Origin: Spirosoma validum
GTDB taxonomy: Bacteria > Bacteroidota > Bacteroidia > Cytophagales > Spirosomataceae
Length of the DNA stretch: 64,000 bases
Direction: 5' to 3'
NCBI RefSeq assembly: GCF_014699035.1
Contig: NZ_JACXAA010000001.1
Coordinates: forward strand, 1,116,001 to 1,180,000
In this document: positions 35,203-42,862 of the stretch, in pieces
Layout of the letters: every line of letters begins with the position of its first letter
Numbering within the stretch: the first letter of the stretch is position 1
Made by a program: the position numbers and the translations under genes
The notes under the pieces: model-generated
What the model was told of the DNA's origin: nothing
The model's database searches: none
What the model saw: the letters and a program-made list of their open reading frames with translations, nothing else

Positions 35203-35210
35203 TATATTTG
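35203..35210 (+). promoter_or_regulatory. -7 promoter element for tRNA-Pro (and possibly the trp operon)
   Basis: TATATTTG is an exact TAnnTTTG; it ends 11 bases before the tRNA acceptor stem, so transcription would begin about four or five bases upstream of it. No other -7-like element is visible between the tRNA and the trp leader. Confidence 0.6.
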
Positions 35211-35221
35211 TGCTCCCAACG

Positions 35222-35314
35222 CGGGGTGTAGCGCAGCCTGGTAGCGTGCTACGTTCGGGACGTAGAGGTCGTGGCCGGGTCGCCGGTGCGATTCGAATCC
35301 CGCCACCCCGACCA
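35222..35314 (+). tRNA. tRNA-Pro (anticodon CGG), unusually long
   Basis: Acceptor arms CGGGGTG (35222-35228) and CACCCCG (35304-35310) pair fully, followed by A and encoded CCA. D-arm GCGC/GCGT and anticodon stem CTACG/CGTAG enclose loop TTCGGGA with CGG at 35256-35258. The 93-base length is about 16 over normal: the variable/T-arm region (35266-35303) holds an extra CCGG-GTCG-CCGG hairpin and the TTCGAAT loop has only a weak 5' T-stem. It may be a proline tRNA with a class-II-like variable arm or a damaged gene. Confidence 0.8.
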
Positions 35315-35359
35315 AAGAAAGCTTAGTAAAAGAAACTCATGACTAGTACGGTTAACAAC

Positions 35360-35395
35360 ATGATCTGGTGGTGGCACTCTCCTACGTTGGGATGA
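35360..35395 (+). CDS. trpL: trp operon leader peptide (11 residues, three consecutive Trp)
   Basis: ATG at 35360 opens the peptide MIWWWHSPTLG, ending in TGA at 35393-35395. The three tandem TGG codons (35366-35374) are what a Trp-sensing attenuator leader needs, and trpE starts 100 bases downstream after a strong terminator hairpin. Segment 35369-35375 (TGGTGGC) can pair with 35401-35407 (GCCGCTA). The stop-codon region 35390-35396 can pair with 35436-35441 inside the terminator stem, giving a plausible antiterminator. No Shine-Dalgarno is visible, as usual for the phylum. Confidence 0.75.
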   Translation: MIWWWHSPTLG

Positions 35396-35430
35396 GGGTT
35401 GCCGCTATTGTTGTTTACCAACATATATAC

Positions 35431-35467
35431 TAAGGCTCACCGTCATCTCGGTGAGCCTTATTTTTTT
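35431..35467 (+). terminator. attenuator terminator upstream of trpE
   Basis: Perfect 12-base stem TAAGGCTCACCG/CGGTGAGCCTTA, 6-base loop, then seven T. It lies between the leader peptide stop (35395) and the trpE start (35496), so read-through is required to express the trp genes. Confidence 0.88.
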
Positions 35468-35495
35468 CCGTCAACTCTAACTTATCTAACAGTTC

Positions 35496-36929
35496 ATGAT
35501 TACCGATTTAAAAGCTACTTACCGCGTTGTCAGCCGCCACAAACGGATGCTGGCCGACATCATTACGCCAGTAAGCATTTACCTGCGCATCCGAGACCGT
35601 TTTCTGAACAGCATTTTGCTCGAAAGCTCCGATTATCACGGCAATGATAATAGTTTTTCGTACATCGCCTTTGATCCGGTCGCACGGTTTTCCTACGATA
35701 CCGGCCGACTGACGGTGAAAATGCCAGGTGAAAGTGAGCAAACGAATGAAGTACCGGTGCAAAGTATGCTGGATGCTCTTCAGCAGTTCAAAGACAGTTT
35801 TCAGCACCAAAAGCCACCCTTTCCCTTTATCACAAACGGGCTGTTTGGCTATTTCGGCTTCCAATCTGTGCAGGGTTTCGAGGATATTACGCTTCATGCG
35901 CCGATACCAACCGAGAACCAGATTCCGGCAGCTGTCTTTACCGTGTATCGCTACGTACTGGCAATCAATCATTTCAAAGACGAGCTTTACCTTTTCGAAC
36001 ACAGCTATTTGCGTGATGGTGAGGCCGAAGCTGAGAGTACGCTCGATTACATCAGCGATCTGATCACAAGCCGTAATTACCCAACCTACTCCTTCAGCCC
36101 GGCTGGCCCCGAAACATCGAACTTCACAGACGACGAATTTCGTGGGGTTATACAGAAAGGGAAAGATCACTGCCAGCGGGGCGACGTGTTCCAGATTGTC
36201 TTATCCCGTCGGTTCTCGACGCCGTTTTCGGGTGACGAATTTAACGTTTATCGCGCGTTACGTTCCCTGAATCCTTCTCCTTATCTGTTCTACTTCGACT
36301 ACGGCAATTATAAACTGTTTGGCTCCTCGCCTGAATCGCAGATTGTCATCAAAAATCGTCAGGCAACCATCTATCCCATTGCGGGTACGTTCCGACGCAC
36401 GGGCGACGATGTACACGATGCCGAACTGGCTCAAAAACTATATAACGATCCGAAAGAATCGGCGGAACACGTAATGCTAGTCGATCTGGCCCGTAATGAC
36501 CTTAGCCGGAACTGCAACGTAGTGAACGTTGAGACATTTAAGGAAGTACAATATTATTCGCACGTTATTCACCTCGTCTCGAAAGTTGTGGGCGATCTGA
36601 CCGCAGACGCTGATCCGCTGCAGATTGTCGCCGAAACTTTCCCGGCCGGAACCCTTTCAGGAGCGCCCAAGCACATGGCCATGCAACTGATTGACCGTTA
36701 CGAAAACCTGAGCCGAAGTTTTTATTCGGGAAGTATTGGCTACATGGGTTTCGACGGTGAGTTTAATCACGCCATCATGATCCGGACGTTTATGAGTAAA
36801 GACAACACGCTTTATTATCAGGCCGGAGCCGGTATTGTAGCTAAGTCAGTCGTTGAAAGCGAATTGCAGGAAGTTCACAACAAACTAGCTGCGCTACGTA
36901 CCGCCATCGAACAAGCGAAAATAATTTAA
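35496..36929 (+). CDS. trpE: anthranilate synthase component I
   Basis: 477 residues. The chorismate-binding C-terminal half contains GDVFQIVLSRRF, FGSSPESQIVI, PIAGTFRRTGDD, LARNDLSRNC, FPAGTLSGAPKHMAMQLID and YSGSIGYMGFDG, all standard TrpE motifs. The N-terminal feedback domain (about 1-150) includes ILLESSDYHG, where family members have the LLES Trp-binding motif, so the enzyme is probably inhibited by tryptophan. With TrpG it makes anthranilate from chorismate. Expression is expected to depend on the upstream attenuator. Confidence 0.96.
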   Translation: MITDLKATYRVVSRHKRMLADIITPVSIYLRIRDRFLNSILLESSDYHGNDNSFSYIAFDPVARFSYDTGRLTVKMPGESEQTNEVPVQSMLDALQQFKDSFQHQKPPFPFITNGLFGYFGFQSVQGFEDITLHAPIPTENQIPAAVFTVYRYVLAINHFKDELYLFEHSYLRDGEAEAESTLDYISDLITSRNYPTYSFSPAGPETSNFTDDEFRGVIQKGKDHCQRGDVFQIVLSRRFSTPFSGDEFNVYRALRSLNPSPYLFYFDYGNYKLFGSSPESQIVIKNRQATIYPIAGTFRRTGDDVHDAELAQKLYNDPKESAEHVMLVDLARNDLSRNCNVVNVETFKEVQYYSHVIHLVSKVVGDLTADADPLQIVAETFPAGTLSGAPKHMAMQLIDRYENLSRSFYSGSIGYMGFDGEFNHAIMIRTFMSKDNTLYYQAGAGIVAKSVVESELQEVHNKLAALRTAIEQAKII

Positions 36930-37018: not shown

Positions 37019-37585
37019 ATGAAACTTTTAGTCTTAGATAATTACGATTCGTTCACCTACAACCTCGTGTATATTCTGCGCGAGTTAGGCACTCGGCCTG
37101 ACGTAATCCGTAATGACAAAATTGCATTGGAAGAAGTCGGCCAATACGACAAAATCATGCTTTCGCCGGGACCGGGCATTCCGTCTGAAGCAGGCATCAT
37201 GCAGGATTTAGTCCGTGAGTATGGCTCGACCAAAAGCATTCTGGGTATTTGCCTTGGCCATCAGGGAATCGGTGAAGTCTACGGTGCACGATTGGAAAAT
37301 CTCGGCGACGTACTGCATGGTATTGCCCATCGAGCGACCATTACCGACCCTTCGGAGAAGCTTTTTACAGACATTCCGGATCAGCTCACCGTGGGCCGTT
37401 ATCATTCCTGGACCGTCGTTCCCGATTCGATGCCCGACGAACTATGTATCACGGCAGTTGACGAGCAGGGCCGTGTCATGGGATTATCACACACCCGCTT
37501 TGATGTAAAAGGGCTACAATTCCATCCAGAATCCGTACTGACGGAGAATGGGGTGAAAATGATTGAAAACTGGTTAAAAAACTAA
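37019..37585 (+). CDS. trpG: anthranilate synthase component II (glutamine amidotransferase)
   Basis: 188 residues, class I amidotransferase: oxyanion LSPGPGIPSEAG at 49-60, nucleophile C78 in GICLGHQGIG, and H169/E171 in QFHPES. It releases ammonia from glutamine for TrpE. The same family also serves p-aminobenzoate synthesis; here the position after trpE and before trpD supports tryptophan synthesis. trpD starts three bases after its stop. Confidence 0.95.
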   Translation: MKLLVLDNYDSFTYNLVYILRELGTRPDVIRNDKIALEEVGQYDKIMLSPGPGIPSEAGIMQDLVREYGSTKSILGICLGHQGIGEVYGARLENLGDVLHGIAHRATITDPSEKLFTDIPDQLTVGRYHSWTVVPDSMPDELCITAVDEQGRVMGLSHTRFDVKGLQFHPESVLTENGVKMIENWLKN

Positions 37586-37588
37586 CAG

Positions 37589-38575
37589 GTGAAAGAGATT
37601 TTAAACCACCTTTTTGAGTATAAGTCACTTACCAAAGAGCAGGCGCGGGAAGTGCTGTTAGGCATTGGGCGGGGTGAGTATAATTCGGCACAAATTGCCT
37701 CGTTTTTAACGGTTTACATGATGCGTAGCCTGCGTTTGGAAGAACTGGAAGGCTTCCGCGATGCCATGCTCGAATTGTGCTTACCCGTCGATTTAGCAGC
37801 TTATGATCCGATGGACCTTTGCGGGACCGGTGGCGACGGAAAAGACACGTTCAACATCTCCACGCTGTCGTCATTCGTGGTAGCTGGCGCGGGGCAGCGG
37901 GTTGCCAAACACGGAAATCACGGTGTATCGTCGCTCGTAGGTTCCTCCACCGTCATGGAACGGCTTGGGTATACGTTCACGAATGACGTAGGTGAGCTGC
38001 AGCGTAAGATGGAAACAGCAGGGATTTGCTTCCTGCATGCCCCTCTGTTTCACCCGGCGATGAAGAACGTAGCACCGATTCGGAAGGATTTGGGCGTAAA
38101 GACATTTTTCAATGTACTGGGGCCGATGATTAACCCCGCAAGGCCTCAAAAACAGCTTGTTGGGGTCTTTAACCTTGAATTGGCGCGATTATATGCGTAC
38201 CTTTATCAGCAGACTGACAAACGGTTTATGATTCTGCATGCACTGGATGGTTATGACGAAATTTCGTTGACGGGTGCTTTCAAAATTGTTAGTAATCAAA
38301 CCGAACAGGTGCTTATGCCGGAGCATCTAGGTTTCGATACACTGACACCGGAGTCGCTGGCGGGTGGCCATACGTTAGATGAATCAGCCCAGATTTTTCT
38401 GAACGTATTGAACGATGAAGCAACCTCCGCCCAGAAACAAGCTGTTTTAGCAAACTCGGCTATGGCGCTGTTAGCCGCCGAGAAAGCAAAAACCAATGAA
38501 GAAGCGGTTGCGCTGGCCCGAGAGTCGCTGGAAAGTGGCCGAGCGTTGGCGTGTTTTAAGAAGTTGATTGAGTAA
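37589..38575 (+). CDS. trpD: anthranilate phosphoribosyltransferase
   Basis: 328 residues. CGTGGDGKDTFNIST near residue 73 is the PRPP-binding loop, and KHGNHGVSS and RKDLGVKTFFNVLGPMINPA are the anthranilate-site signatures. Starts with GTG three bases after trpG; MKEILNHLFEYKSLT matches the family N-terminus. Catalyses the second step of tryptophan synthesis. The following gap to trpC carries a composite palindrome. Confidence 0.95.
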   Translation: MKEILNHLFEYKSLTKEQAREVLLGIGRGEYNSAQIASFLTVYMMRSLRLEELEGFRDAMLELCLPVDLAAYDPMDLCGTGGDGKDTFNISTLSSFVVAGAGQRVAKHGNHGVSSLVGSSTVMERLGYTFTNDVGELQRKMETAGICFLHAPLFHPAMKNVAPIRKDLGVKTFFNVLGPMINPARPQKQLVGVFNLELARLYAYLYQQTDKRFMILHALDGYDEISLTGAFKIVSNQTEQVLMPEHLGFDTLTPESLAGGHTLDESAQIFLNVLNDEATSAQKQAVLANSAMALLAAEKAKTNEEAVALARESLESGRALACFKKLIE

Positions 38576-38576
38576 C

Positions 38577-38668
38577 GCGGACTTTAGTCCGCATAGCCGT
38601 GAGGCTACTTATGTAGTTATAACCATTAGCCTTACGGCTTAACGGACTGAAGCGGAAGCGTCCGTCCG
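38577..38668. repeat. composite palindromic element between trpD and trpC
   Basis: Nested hairpins: GCGGACTTTAGTCCGC (38577-38592), TAGCCGTGAGGCTA, its distant partner TAGCCTTACGGCTTA (near 38627-38641), and a right part ACGGACTGAAGCGGAAGC with GTCCGTCC. It resembles the GGCTTCAGCC-core family but is degenerate. It lies 16 bases before the trpC start. Confidence 0.7.
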
Positions 38669-38683
38669 ACCGCGATACATAAA

Positions 38684-39502
38684 ATGACCATACTCGACCA
38701 AATCATTGCTCAGAAGCGAATTGAAGTAGAACAGCGTAAAGCCGAAACGCCAGCGTCAGTGCTCGAACAAATGCCTGACTTTAAGCGAATGACCTTATCG
38801 GCACGCGACGCCATTCAGGACTTACGTTCAACGGGTATTATTGCCGAATTCAAGCGTAAATCACCGTCTAAAGGCATTATCAATACGCAAGCCGACGTAG
38901 CAGAAACCACACAGGGCTACGTAAAAGCGGGAGCAGCGGTTCTCTCTGTTCTGACGGACGAGCCGTTTTTTGGTGGAACTCCCGCCGATCTGCAAGCCGC
39001 CCGGTTAGCTAATCCTACTACGCCAATTCTGCGCAAAGATTTCATTGTCGATCAATACCAACTTCTCGAAGCCAAAGCTTGGGGCGCCGATCTCGTGTTA
39101 CTCATAGCTGCCTGCCTGACGCCCGAAGAGATAGCAGAACTGAGTCTCCAGGCCCACGATTTGAGTTTACAGGTGCTGCTCGAAGTGCACGATGAAGAAG
39201 AGCTGGATCGGAGCCTGAACGTAGACGTTGATTTAGTGGGCGTAAACAATCGCAATCTTAAGACATTCACTACCTCTATCGATACGTCGCTACGTCTGGT
39301 AGAACGCATTCCTGATACGTTTGCCAAGATTACTGAAAGCGGATTGCACGATGCCGAAATGATGCAAACCTTGTTCCGCGCCGGTTTTGATGGATTTTTA
39401 ATTGGTGAAGCGTTTATGAAAACGACCGATCCTGCCGCAGCTTTACAAACCTTAGTCACTGATTTTACTTCACGCATGCCCACCTTTATAAACTCGCTTT
39501 AG
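38684..39502 (+). CDS. trpC: indole-3-glycerol phosphate synthase
   Basis: 272 residues, TIM barrel. IIAEFKRKSPSKG (catalytic Glu/Lys region), ILRKDFIVDQYQL, VGVNNRNLKTF and ITESGLHDAEM are the family motifs in order. Converts carboxyphenylaminodeoxyribulose phosphate to indole-3-glycerol phosphate. Monofunctional; trpF is separate and starts three bases after its stop. Confidence 0.96.
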   Translation: MTILDQIIAQKRIEVEQRKAETPASVLEQMPDFKRMTLSARDAIQDLRSTGIIAEFKRKSPSKGIINTQADVAETTQGYVKAGAAVLSVLTDEPFFGGTPADLQAARLANPTTPILRKDFIVDQYQLLEAKAWGADLVLLIAACLTPEEIAELSLQAHDLSLQVLLEVHDEEELDRSLNVDVDLVGVNNRNLKTFTTSIDTSLRLVERIPDTFAKITESGLHDAEMMQTLFRAGFDGFLIGEAFMKTTDPAAALQTLVTDFTSRMPTFINSL

Positions 39503-39505
39503 TCT

Positions 39506-40150
39506 ATGAAAATTAAAGTATGCGGTCTACGCGACGCCGACAACCTGAAAGAGATAGCTGCGCTGAATCCCGATTTCATTGGGTTTATTTTCTACGATCA
39601 GTCACCCCGTTTTGTCGGCGAAGACTTAGATGAAGAAGCCGTAAAAGCGTTACCCCGGAGTATTCGGAAAGTAGGCGTGTTCGTGAATGCCAGTCCGGAT
39701 TACATTCTGCGGTCGGTTAAGAAATACGATTTTCAGTACGTTCAGTTACATGGTAACGAGACACCGGAATATTGCCGGAGCTTGCGGAACCGGGGCATTA
39801 ACATCATCAAAGCCTTTCGGGTCGATGAGTCGTTCAACTTTTCGATGCTCAACAACTACAAAGCCCAGTGCGATTTCTTCCTTTTCGACGCTAAAGGCGA
39901 TCAACCTGGCGGCAACGGCATTACGTTTGACTGGAGTATTTTAAAGCGATACGATGGTGAAAAGCCCTTTTTCATCAGTGGCGGCATTGGTTTAGACAAT
40001 CTCGATCAGTTAGCCGCGCTAAAAGGAATGAAGCTCTACGGCGTCGATGTCAATAGTCAGGTCGAAATCGAACCGGGCGTGAAAGACGTAGCGAAAGTGA
40101 AGGAGTTGATTGATCGCGTTCGGCCAGTAGAGGAAGAAGAAACGGTGTAA
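39506..40150 (+). CDS. trpF: phosphoribosylanthranilate isomerase
   Basis: 214 residues. KVCGLRD holds the catalytic Cys (C6), and the catalytic Asp lies in FFLFDAKGDQPGGNG; the phosphate site ends in GVDVNSQVEIEPGVKD. Third step of the tryptophan branch. Starts three bases after trpC. A PIN-domain toxin module follows before trpB. Confidence 0.95.
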   Translation: MKIKVCGLRDADNLKEIAALNPDFIGFIFYDQSPRFVGEDLDEEAVKALPRSIRKVGVFVNASPDYILRSVKKYDFQYVQLHGNETPEYCRSLRNRGINIIKAFRVDESFNFSMLNNYKAQCDFFLFDAKGDQPGGNGITFDWSILKRYDGEKPFFISGGIGLDNLDQLAALKGMKLYGVDVNSQVEIEPGVKDVAKVKELIDRVRPVEEEETV

Positions 40151-40198
40151 GGCAATCATTCCAGAGACGATCTTGTTAATCACTAAACGACAACGCTA

Positions 40199-40414
40199 AT
40201 GGAAACGACGAACGAACAGGAATTAGAGCACATTCCGACCATCAAGGAACGAGGATCGAATGTGTATAAACCCGAAGACATTAAACGCTGGGGAGTAGAG
40301 CGATTTTTAGATGCTGTTTCGCCAAAAGAGCCGTTTCACTTTGGAATCGAATTTACCGATGAAGAAAATCGTCGAATGGACGAGGTTTTAGAAGAGGAGA
40401 AGAATCGTAAATGA
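40199..40414 (+). CDS. small protein upstream of a PIN-domain gene, putative antitoxin
   Basis: 71 residues, highly charged (Glu/Lys/Arg), with no domain I recognise. Its last four bases overlap the start of the PIN gene (ATGA), the usual arrangement of a VapB-like antitoxin with its VapC toxin. The C-terminus, rich in Glu and Arg ([19 protein letters not shown]), could be the toxin-wrapping tail; the N-terminal half has no obvious ribbon-helix-helix or AbrB fold. Assignment as antitoxin is inferred from position only. Confidence 0.6.
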   Translation: METTNEQELEHIPTIKERGSNVYKPEDIKRWGVERFLDAVSPKEPFHFGIEFTDEENRRMDEVLEEEKNRK

Positions 40415-40803
40415 TATTTGACACCAACCTTCTAATCAACGTAGTACGCAAGAATTTAACCGCTTCAAACCGGCTGGTAATCCCTATCATTGTCGTAGGT
40501 GAACTTGAGGCATTCGCGCTTAAATCTGATTGGGGTGTGCAAAAGGTCAATAGGATGAAGCATCTATTTGCCACATATCCAATTGCGGACATTACGCTAC
40601 CCGTTACGCGGCTATATTCTCAAGTTGACGCATTTAGTCAGGGGAAATTGAAAGATATTCCGCTAAAATCTTCCGCCCGGAACATGGGCAAAAACGACAT
40701 TTGGATTGCAGCAACCGCCTTATATCTGGATATGGAATTACACACCACCGACAACGACTTCGATCATTTAACCGCCTTAGGATTACAATTGGTTAAGCAC
40801 TGA
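40411..40803 (+). CDS. PIN domain protein, VapC-type ribonuclease toxin
   Basis: 130 residues. The acidic PIN residues are in place: D4 in MIFDTN, E31 in VGELEAF, an Asp in [11 protein letters not shown] and Asp residues in TTDNDFDHL near the end. It should be a Mg-dependent RNase held in check by the upstream small protein. The pair interrupts the trp operon between trpF and trpB; trpB starts five bases after its stop, so the three are likely on one transcript. Confidence 0.85.
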
Positions 40804-40808
40804 TTTTT

Positions 40809-42008
40809 ATGCAAACCACGCTCGAACCCCAAACCTCTTTTGAGGTTACCGATAAAGGATTTTATGGCCACTTTGGTGGAGCCTTCATTCCTGAAATGCT
40901 TTATCCAAACGTCGAAGAACTACGTCAGAATTACCTGAAGATCATTGCCGATCCGGCGTTTCAGGCCGAGTTCTGGCAGTTATTGGAAGATTACGTTGGC
41001 CGACCAACACCCTTGTTTCTGGCGAAACGATTGTCCGAGAAAATTGGCGCGACGGTTTACCTCAAACGCGAAGACCTCTGTCATACAGGAGCGCACAAAG
41101 TCAACAATACGATTGGTCAGATTCTGGTGGCGCAACGCCTTGGTAAAAAACGGATCGTTGCCGAAACCGGAGCCGGTCAACATGGTGTCGCGACGGCAAC
41201 CGTCTGCGCGCTGATGGGGCTGGAATGCATTGTTTACATGGGCAGCATCGATATGGAACGGCAGAAGCCCAACGTGGATCGGATGCGGATGCTCGGTGCT
41301 ACGGTCGTTCCAGCTACGTCGGGTAGTCAGACGCTGAAAGATGCGACGAATGAAGCCATGCGCCACTGGATCAACAATCCCGTCGATACGCATTACATCA
41401 TCGGCTCAGTCGTTGGCCCACACCCCTACCCGGATATGGTGGCTCGATTTCAGTCGGTTATTTCCCAGGAAACCCGAAAACAGCTTTTTGCCAAAGTCGG
41501 CCGCGAGAATCCTGATTACGTAGTGGCTTGTGTAGGTGGCGGCAGTAATGCTGCCGGTATGTTTTATCACTACCTGAATGAACCCTCAGTACGTCTGGTA
41601 GCGGCCGAAGCAGCTGGACAGGGTGTTACGTCGGGTTATTCTGCCGCAACGACTGCGCTAGGAAAACCGGGGGTGTTGCATGGAAGTCGTACGATTCTGA
41701 TGCAAACAGAAGATGGTCAGGTTACGGAGCCTTATTCGATTTCGGCAGGTCTGGATTATCCAGGTATCGGCCCACTTCATGCCCATTTGTTCGAATCGGG
41801 CCGGGGTGATTTCTACGCCATTACGGATGATGAAGCGTTGCAGGCTGGTTTCCAACTCAGCAAACTGGAAGGCATTATTCCAGCGCTGGAATCGGCTCAC
41901 GCACTGGCAGCTCTTGAGAAAATGAACCTCAAACCCAGCGATATCGTGGTGGTTTGTCTGTCTGGGCGTGGCGATAAAGATTTAAATACGTATTCAAAGC
42001 ATTTGTAA
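40809..42008 (+). CDS. trpB: tryptophan synthase beta subunit
   Basis: 399 residues of type TrpB1. PLP lysine K97 in [39 protein letters not shown] phosphate loop and [11 protein letters not shown] near the end are diagnostic. [14 protein letters not shown] is the standard N-terminus. Condenses indole with serine. Begins five bases after the PIN gene and is separated from trpA by a REP-like hairpin. Confidence 0.97.
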
Positions 42009-42009
42009 C

Positions 42010-42072
42010 GTATCCACGGGCTTCAGCCCGTGATCATCACTGAACAAATCACGGTCTGAAGCCCGTGGATAC
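42010..42072. repeat. REP-like inverted repeat, GGCTTCAGCC-core family (copy 2), in the trpB-trpA gap
   Basis: Arms 42010-42034 and 42048-42072 (25 bases) pair with one mismatch around a 13-base loop. It starts two bases after the trpB stop and ends four bases before the trpA ATG. Confidence 0.9.
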
Positions 42073-42076
42073 CTTT

Positions 42077-42862
42077 ATGACCCTAACCCAAAACCGCATC
42101 ACCGACCTGTTCGCGCAAAAAAGCGAGCGGTTACTGAATGTCTATTTTACAGCCGGATTTCCCCACCTCGATGACACGCTGACAATCCTACGTGGTTTAC
42201 AGGCGGCTGGCGTCGATTTAGTGGAAATTGGTATGCCTTATTCCGATCCTGTTGCCGATGGCGAAACCATCCAGAAAAGTAATGGGAAAGCCCTGGACAA
42301 TGGCATGTCGTTAAAAACGCTGTTTGTTCAGTTGGCTGATTGTCGCGAAGAAATTAGCGTGCCCATTCTGCTAATGGGCTATATCAATCCAGTACTGCAG
42401 TTTGGCGTAGAAAATTTCTGCAAAAAGTGTCAGGAAGTTGGTGTAGACGGTGTTATTCTGCCCGACCTCCCGCTGGATTTATTTCTTGACGAGTATGCTG
42501 AGACGTTTCGTGAATACGGTATTCTAAATGTCCACCTGATTACCCCTCAAACGTCAGAAAGTCGCATCCGGCTTATTGACGACGAATCCGACGGGTTTAT
42601 TTACATGGTATCGTCAGCTAGTATTACGGGGTCGACAAAGGGCATCAGTGAATCGATGCAAACGTACTTCGAGCGGATTCAGGCGATGAACCTACAAAAT
42701 CCACGACTGATTGGGTTTGGTATTAATGATCACGAAACGTTTGATACCGCCAGTCAATACGCCAATGGAGCCATTGTTGGGAGTGCATTTATCCGGCATT
42801 TGGACGAAAATGGTACGTCGCCCGAGAGCATCCACGAGTTTGTGCAGACGATTCGGGCGTAA
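42077..42862 (+). CDS. trpA: tryptophan synthase alpha subunit
   Basis: 261 residues from ATG 42077 (MTLTQNRITDLFAQK). An in-frame GTG at 42065 is within the palindromic element and is rejected. Catalytic E50 and D61 lie in VEIGMPYSDPVADG; ASITGSTKG and GFGINDHETF form the phosphate site. Cleaves indole-3-glycerol phosphate to indole, which is channelled to TrpB. The hairpin directly before the start may affect initiation. Confidence 0.96.
   Translation: MTLTQNRITDLFAQKSERLLNVYFTAGFPHLDDTLTILRGLQAAGVDLVEIGMPYSDPVADGETIQKSNGKALDNGMSLKTLFVQLADCREEISVPILLMGYINPVLQFGVENFCKKCQEVGVDGVILPDLPLDLFLDEYAETFREYGILNVHLITPQTSESRIRLIDDESDGFIYMVSSASITGSTKGISESMQTYFERIQAMNLQNPRLIGFGINDHETFDTASQYANGAIVGSAFIRHLDENGTSPESIHEFVQTIRA

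Follow-up and report, generated by a model that had tools for sequence, protein, structure and literature searches.

The 64,000-nt stretch of Spirosoma validum DNA analysed here (the window) carries a trp operon on its plus strand, preceded by a putative promoter box, a tRNA-Pro(CGG) gene, a short leader peptide open reading frame (ORF) with three tandem Trp codons, and an intrinsic terminator (Table 1). By TrpE, its closest named relatives are species of Spirosoma. The original prediction, a Trp-codon leader and a terminator ahead of trpE, was borne out, as the ORF, the 12-bp stem, the run of seven T, and the trpE start at 35496 were all found. Its description of the leader nevertheless omitted the tRNA-Pro gene and the TAnnTTTG box just upstream. 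Within the operon, the insert between trpF and trpB (40199-40803) consists of a 71-aa ORF with a 4-base overlap with a 130-aa PIN/VapC-like gene, an arrangement resembling a toxin-antitoxin pair; NCBIfam matches of the 130-aa protein were far under cut-off.

The terminator pairs 35431-35442 with 35449-35460 around a loop at 35443-35448, with the seven T at 35461-35467, and thus places an intrinsic terminator before the first structural gene. It is the only terminator-like site on the plus strand between 34900 and 35700; shuffles of this 801-base region contained on average 0.8 such sites, both strands counted. Upstream of it, the leader had been read as an 11-residue ORF with three TGG codons (ATG ATC TGG TGG TGG CAC TCT CCT ACG TTG GGA TGA, 35360-35395 including the stop). 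The Trp run stands, and the length is to be revised: an in-frame ATG at 35339, upstream of the one at 35360, yields an 18-residue peptide, and since several relatives lacking the inner ATG retain the outer one (L010, L016, L023, and L027, among others), the leader peptide most likely comprises 18 residues (35339-35395). In either version, a short leader ORF carries tandem codons for the amino acid made by the regulated genes.

Table 1. Positions of the trp leader, its upstream tRNA gene, and the trp genes in the window
Feature	Position	Strand	Basis or remark
TATATTTG, Bacteroidota −7 box (TAnnTTTG)	35203..35210	+	predicted
tRNA-Pro(CGG) gene, 93 nt	35222..35314	+	first gene of the predicted transcript
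T-arm segment, 17 nt in place of a single G of the intact Spirosoma gene (net +16 nt)	35275..35291	+	comparison with intact form
Leader peptide ORF, 18 codons MTSTVNNMIWWWHSPTLG plus TGA	35339..35395	+	several relatives lack the inner ATG
Protector 5′ strand (outer arm and Trp codons)	35350..35384	+	MFE
Three tandem Trp codons	35366..35374	+	ORF reading
Protector 3′ strand, overlapping the antiterminator strand	35388..35419	+	MFE
Antiterminator 5′ strand, holding the leader stop codon (35393-35395)	35390..35403	+	duplex, covariation, constrained folding
Antiterminator 3′ strand (terminator 5′ arm and loop)	35434..35448	+	duplex, covariation
Intrinsic terminator: 12-bp stem, 6-nt loop, seven T	35431..35467	+	fold and compensatory changes
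trpE	35496..36929	+	first structural gene after the attenuator
trpG, trpD, trpC, trpF, two-ORF insert, trpB, trpA	37019..42862	+	
Small two-ORF insert with PIN/VapC-like gene	between trpF and trpB	+	

Conservation of the Trp-codon leader

A TrpE search was run across 150 genomes of the family, including that of S. validum, all of which gave a match. From these we collected 90 trpE upstream regions, namely 30 loci returned by the search (the window's included) and 60 chosen for genus spread; two are duplicates (L088 and L089, which repeat L026 and L022), leaving 88 distinct regions, each from a different one of the 150 genomes. A Trp-run ORF followed by a terminator was parsed in 84 of the 88. 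Two more (L063 and L090) have a Trp-run ORF with a weak U run, and no Trp-run leader was found in the trpE upstream regions of L087 and L091, the parse of L091 being false. L088, L089, and L091 are left out of all counts over 84 leaders below (duplex, box, and folding). The middle TGG of the Trp run is invariant among the 48 aligned leaders that remained after the 84 were thinned for redundancy. Alignment with relatives, suggested as a check of the original prediction, found the Trp run and the terminator conserved. For a set of 80 named loci, the parse gave a leader in 77, that of L214 being false, and none in L162, L207 (short upstream sequence), and L212.

A model-based search gave a consistent picture within the genus, model R1 matching 36 of 36 Spirosoma genomes at E ≤ 1e-8. 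Across the phylum, R1 reached E ≤ 0.01 in 198 of 395 genomes, a figure that we rejected as a leader count because plain terminators reach the same threshold (two matches in the genome of S. validum itself). Of the 30 best loci of the phylum search, 29 were read; the Trp run was present in all 29, 26 of which lie outside the family. In the genome of S. validum, R1 and a second model, R2, each gave one strong match, the window. Five of the ten weaker R1 matches there (L217-L220 and L223) were inspected by eye: four look like ordinary terminators, including L217, in which two Trp codons fall at the end of an apparent longer reading frame, and L223 has no Trp run.

This distribution bears on whether the hairpin might simply terminate the tRNA-Pro gene constitutively, with an incidental Trp-rich ORF and a trpE promoter lying after 35467. 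Terminators are needed by tRNA genes, and the hairpin is the sole plus-strand candidate of its neighbourhood; however, the Trp run and the antiterminator described below are conserved in genera without the tRNA, Trp-run leaders occur outside the family too, and by eye the 28-nt gap before trpE (35468-35495) contains no TAnnTTTG. We thus consider a purely constitutive terminator highly improbable.

Competing hairpins and ribosome positions

Folding with an energy model, another of the suggested checks, showed the 136-nt leader to be far more stable than its 200 shuffles (−54.4 kcal/mol vs −32.2 ± 3.8; z = −5.85), none of which folded as low. The pre-emptor pairing first proposed, 35369-35375 with 35401-35407, lies within the MFE structure, where 35366-35375 pairs with 35398-35407. 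The outer protector helix is weakly supported among relatives, with the leader's own pairing better than swapped ones in 61 of 84 cases and within the best 5% of shuffles in 23 of 84. For the terminator, compensatory changes were observed at 8 of 11 consensus pairs across the 48 aligned leaders.

The best antiterminator duplex joins 35390-35395 to 35443-35448, 35397-35399 to 35439-35441, and 35401-35403 to 35434-35436, at −18.7 kcal/mol. The antiterminator is hence a larger helix than first stated, and one that invades the terminator loop: of the pairing initially put forward (35390-35396 with 35436-35441), the 5′ strand and the inclusion of the stop codon hold, but the register does not, as covariation in relatives favours pairing with the loop. 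In the subset of 38 leaders that share the common loop type, pairing is seen in 322 of 380 antiterminator cells, a value reached by none of 5000 shuffles (mean 294.5, maximum 309). This count is to be read as support rather than as a probability since the leaders share descent and the cells are not independent. One position alone is occupied by 18 A-U, 10 U-A, and 3 G-C pairs in these 38 leaders. The shifted register of nine Spirosoma-type rows and of L038 was set by hand; the nine Spirosoma-type leaders are nearly invariant in the antiterminator and contributed no covariation. Over the full set, the antiterminator duplex fell within the best 5% of 200 shuffles for 72 of 84 leaders, and for 78 of 84 the pairing with the leader's own terminator surpassed the mean for other leaders' partners. 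Compensatory changes, which relatives had been expected to show in the stems, are thus present in terminator and antiterminator alike.

We then placed a ribosome on each transcript, assuming a footprint that extends 15 nt upstream and 16 nt downstream of the first P-site base, and folded the RNA as it would be before the terminator 3′ arm is made. A measure counting any pairing with the terminator arm was discarded, as it gave a median of 8.8 pairs even with the ribosome at the stop codon, and was replaced by cognate pairs. Averaged over the 84 leaders, the cognate antiterminator pairs had a probability of 0.33 without a ribosome, 0.90 with one stalled at the last Trp codon, and 0.03 with one at the stop codon; for the window, the corresponding values were 0.00, 1.00, and 0.00. 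Exceptions occurred in both directions: the antiterminator already exceeded 0.8 without a ribosome in 16 of 84 leaders and still exceeded 0.2 with the ribosome at the stop in 4 of 84, and despite a Trp stall it stayed at or below 0.8 in 16 of 84, with L050 forming its cognate pairs in no ribosome state. In silico, then, stalling at the control codons favours an antiterminator that is mutually exclusive with the terminator.

The same features argue against tryptophan being sensed by another route, i.e., a small-molecule riboswitch, a T-box, or a trp RNA-binding protein: at gathering score, Rfam matched nothing in the whole window except the tRNA, the Trp codons and the stop codon are located in the competing stems, and the Trp run is conserved in frame. 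Such a route appears very remote, and we conclude that 35339-35467 is very probably a ribosome-mediated transcription attenuator of the trp operon, its response to tryptophan being what we infer from these features. The extension of the stalling mechanism to this member of the Bacteroidota, initially assumed, is now supported by the conserved Trp run, the compensatory changes in both stems, and the constrained folding.

Relationship to described trp leaders

The notion that attenuation is not a commonly cited control mode in Bacteroidota proved only partly right. Rfam describes RF01692, Bacteroid-trp, as a "Bacteroidete tryptophan peptide leader RNA"; the motif is given in Table 1 of PMC2864571, it is placed before trp in Flavobacterium psychrophilum in a passage of PMC6414381, and a section of PMC9723704 mentions clues to leader-peptide attenuation ahead of amino-acid operons of the same species.

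RF01692 itself gave no match to the window at E ≤ 10, and none in the S. validum genome at E ≤ 1 under stricter filters, so that the window falls outside the family by the gathering cut-off of 49 bits, which is a detection limit. That cut-off was reached in 6 of the 150 family genomes, and E ≤ 1 in 41 of the 150 (stricter filters); among the 42 matches listed at E ≤ 1, 36 lie directly upstream of trpE. Six loci were also run at gathering score, of which one, L228 from outside the family, passed (66.4 bits).

We therefore turned to homology through intermediates, using model R2, which was built from 30 leaders with the window's tRNA-bearing clade excluded and run on 16 sources. R2 found the leader in each of the 16 and scored the window at 60.9 bits; in the 8.2-Mb genome of S. 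validum, the window had E = 7e-15 and the next best match E = 0.003. Four RF01692 loci over the cut-off (L092-L095) scored 96-102 bits, being near relatives of some of the rows in R2, and five loci outside the family scored 52-68 bits, L228 reaching 67.8. Since a clade-free model finds the window alone in its genome and also scores RF01692 loci, the window is linked to accepted members by homology, and we treat its leader as a divergent member of the described Bacteroid-trp family. Both are leader-type cis-regulators before trpE in Bacteroidota; unlike RF01692, however, the window leader has a shorter loop strand with GGATGA:TCATCT pairing and sits behind a tRNA-Pro gene. Against the 6 family genomes (of 150) in which RF01692 reaches its cut-off stand the 84 upstream regions (of 88) where a Trp leader followed by a terminator was parsed.

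The proteobacterial-type model RF00513 (Trp_leader) matched the window over its full length at 22.3 bits, under its cut-off of 41, which leaves the window outside that family as well. The Escherichia coli trpL attenuator combines a protector, an antiterminator, and a terminator with tandem Trp codons, and the window follows the same logic; it differs in having three Trp codons, a Bacteroidota −7 box, and an antiterminator that includes the stop codon and reaches into the terminator loop.

A probable tRNA-Pro promoter ahead of the leader

In F. psychrophilum, the TAnnTTTG box spans −12 to −5 according to the promoter data in PMC9723704, and on this basis transcription would start near 35215, from a putative tRNA-Pro promoter. 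Across the 84 leaders, all 33 loci with an ARAGORN-called tRNA-Pro have a TAnnTTTG within 20 nt before the tRNA, and no terminator-like site was found between tRNA and leader in any of the 33. The box before the tRNA or its remnant is moreover kept in 36 of 36 Spirosoma genomes, including the 9 in which the tRNA is degraded. Taken together, these three observations suggest that the tRNA promoter probably drives the trp operon, with the tRNA and the trp leader presumably co-transcribed.

Alternatively, the attenuator may be real but served by a separate promoter, possibly one without TAnnTTTG, located either between tRNA and leader or within the tRNA gene, which would then be no more than a neighbour. 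The anticodon arm TACGTTCG is, by eye, one letter off TAnnTTTG, the −33 element of the window is weak (the region reads TTC, compared to TTG in several relatives), and a second TAnnTTTG is present between tRNA and leader in two Spirosoma genomes out of 36 (G140 and G159). Against this, only one of the 33 tRNA-bearing loci has the box in that position (L016, in a decayed second tRNA copy), compared to all 33 before the tRNA; the outer box persists where the tRNA body is lost; and of the 51 leaders without a called tRNA, 49 have a box before the leader, at 4 to 105 nt, and 2 have none. A separate promoter thus seems unlikely, and transcription from the tRNA promoter remains our preferred reading.

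Under that reading, RNA polymerase would start at about 35215, cross the tRNA, and then make the leader. When charged tRNA-Trp is short, a ribosome would stall on the three Trp codons and mask the protector 5′ strand, so that 35390-35403 could pair with 35434-35448, blocking the terminator and letting transcription proceed into trpE and onward. With Trp plentiful, a ribosome at the UGA (35393-35395) would cover the antiterminator strand, and 35431-35460 with its seven U would stop transcription; if the leader were not translated, the protector hairpin of the window would likewise leave the terminator free. The attenuator would, in addition, double as the tRNA terminator. A promoter common to a tRNA gene and a protein-coding message is likewise found in bacterial tRNA-mRNA operons, among them thrU-tufB and metY-nusA of E. 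coli; in the window, unlike in these, an attenuator between the two would end the tRNA transcript. Among the open-licence papers listed in literature searches, none dealt with a tRNA-coupled trp attenuator or with attenuators in Spirosoma.

Probable repeated decay of the tRNA gene

The T-arm insertion in the window tRNA is G+C-rich and makes the function of this tRNA-Pro(CGG) doubtful. Similar insertions were seen in G143, G165, L024, L026, and L030, and, on visual inspection, in second, decayed copies of the tRNA from further Spirosoma genomes. The two other full-length tRNA-Pro hits in the S. validum genome read UGG and GGG, the CGG copy being the single one found by a search that an overly divergent copy would escape. 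Loss of tRNA-Pro(CGG) is plausibly tolerable because the remaining Pro tRNAs read UGG and GGG.

Of the 36 Spirosoma genomes, 24 have an intact tRNA-Pro gene and 3 one with a T-arm insertion (the window's, G143, and G165); in the other 9 it is degraded or lost. We mapped the degraded state on a TrpE tree of 40 rows, comprising 35 Spirosoma genomes (without G151) and G018, G044, G080, G054, and G029, with G054 scored as intact despite an insertion in its 95-nt gene and G029, which has no tRNA, as degraded. At the fewest, 9 changes are needed, at least 5 of them forced by well-supported branches.

The leader stands behind tRNA-Pro in named species of Spirosoma, Fibrisoma, Fibrella, Fibrivirga, Rudanella, and Larkinella, and in the TrpE-close genomes G029 and G048 no tRNA was called before it. 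We find it fairly likely that the trp operon came under the tRNA-Pro(CGG) promoter in an ancestor of Spirosoma, Fibrisoma, Fibrella, Rudanella, and Larkinella, that the attenuator became the tRNA terminator, and that the tRNA then decayed repeatedly with its box kept. This would imply a single origin of the coupling in that common ancestor, a point against which is the lack of a called tRNA in G029 and G048. The repeated decay of the tRNA body would follow from tRNA-Pro(CGG) probably being dispensable beside the UGG tRNA. A leader positioned behind tRNA-Pro(CGG) in Spirosoma and several relatives, with repeated tRNA decay, is apparently new.

Several further tRNA-related observations were made at these loci. 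A 33-nt copy (94%) of the tRNA-Pro 3′ end lies about 157 kb upstream of the trp locus (L118; G000:C11:994200-994400), and is possibly an attachment-site remnant of an integrative element. Three Larkinella-type loci show a 5S rRNA gene followed by tRNA-Pro, trp leader, and trpE, the 5S gene being Rfam-confirmed in L040 and recognized by eye in L034 and L039. A record labelled Flavobacterium sp. SUN052 (L155) has a Rudanella-like tRNA-Pro and trp leader, which suggests a misnamed or mixed genome. One relative (L081; G065:C29:12284-12357) has a tRNA-Trp gene between the attenuator terminator, which it directly follows, and trpE; no second close copy was found in its genome, and none in 8 neighbours (E ≤ 1e-5). 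If expressed only via readthrough, this tRNA-Trp would be induced by Trp starvation.

Predicted leaderless starts in tRNA-less relatives

In the loci without a called tRNA, the distance from box to start codon (start codons being chosen by rule) is exactly 4 nt in 11 of 51, every other distance occurring at most three times. Combined with the −12 to −5 placement of the box, this 4-nt spacing suggests that in these 11 loci the leader would be leaderless, with its AUG at +1. There is precedent for the principle: leaderless mRNAs make up 5.5% of the 890 mapped in F. psychrophilum in the figures given by PMC9723704, and in Sinorhizobium meliloti the transcript of the trpL attenuator begins with its AUG, as stated in the portion of PMC7298713 dealing with this RNA. 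The AUG-first spacing of S. meliloti trpL (rnTrpL) is comparable to that of the 11 loci; in the window, unlike there, the leader AUG would lie about 125 nt past the predicted start, behind the tRNA, and the box ends 128 nt before it, so that the window itself does not have the AUG at +1.

Implications

These results provide a covariation-backed antiterminator for this group of leaders. They also raise the question of how Shine-Dalgarno-poor Bacteroidota load ribosomes fast enough onto attenuator leaders, the contrast being between a leaderless start in some genera and a position behind a tRNA in others. If promoter capture is the correct explanation, tRNA fossils persist as the 5′ end of an amino-acid switch. 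The Spirosoma loci also offer a natural series of decay, from an intact tRNA gene to a lost one, along which the promoter would stay on to serve that switch.
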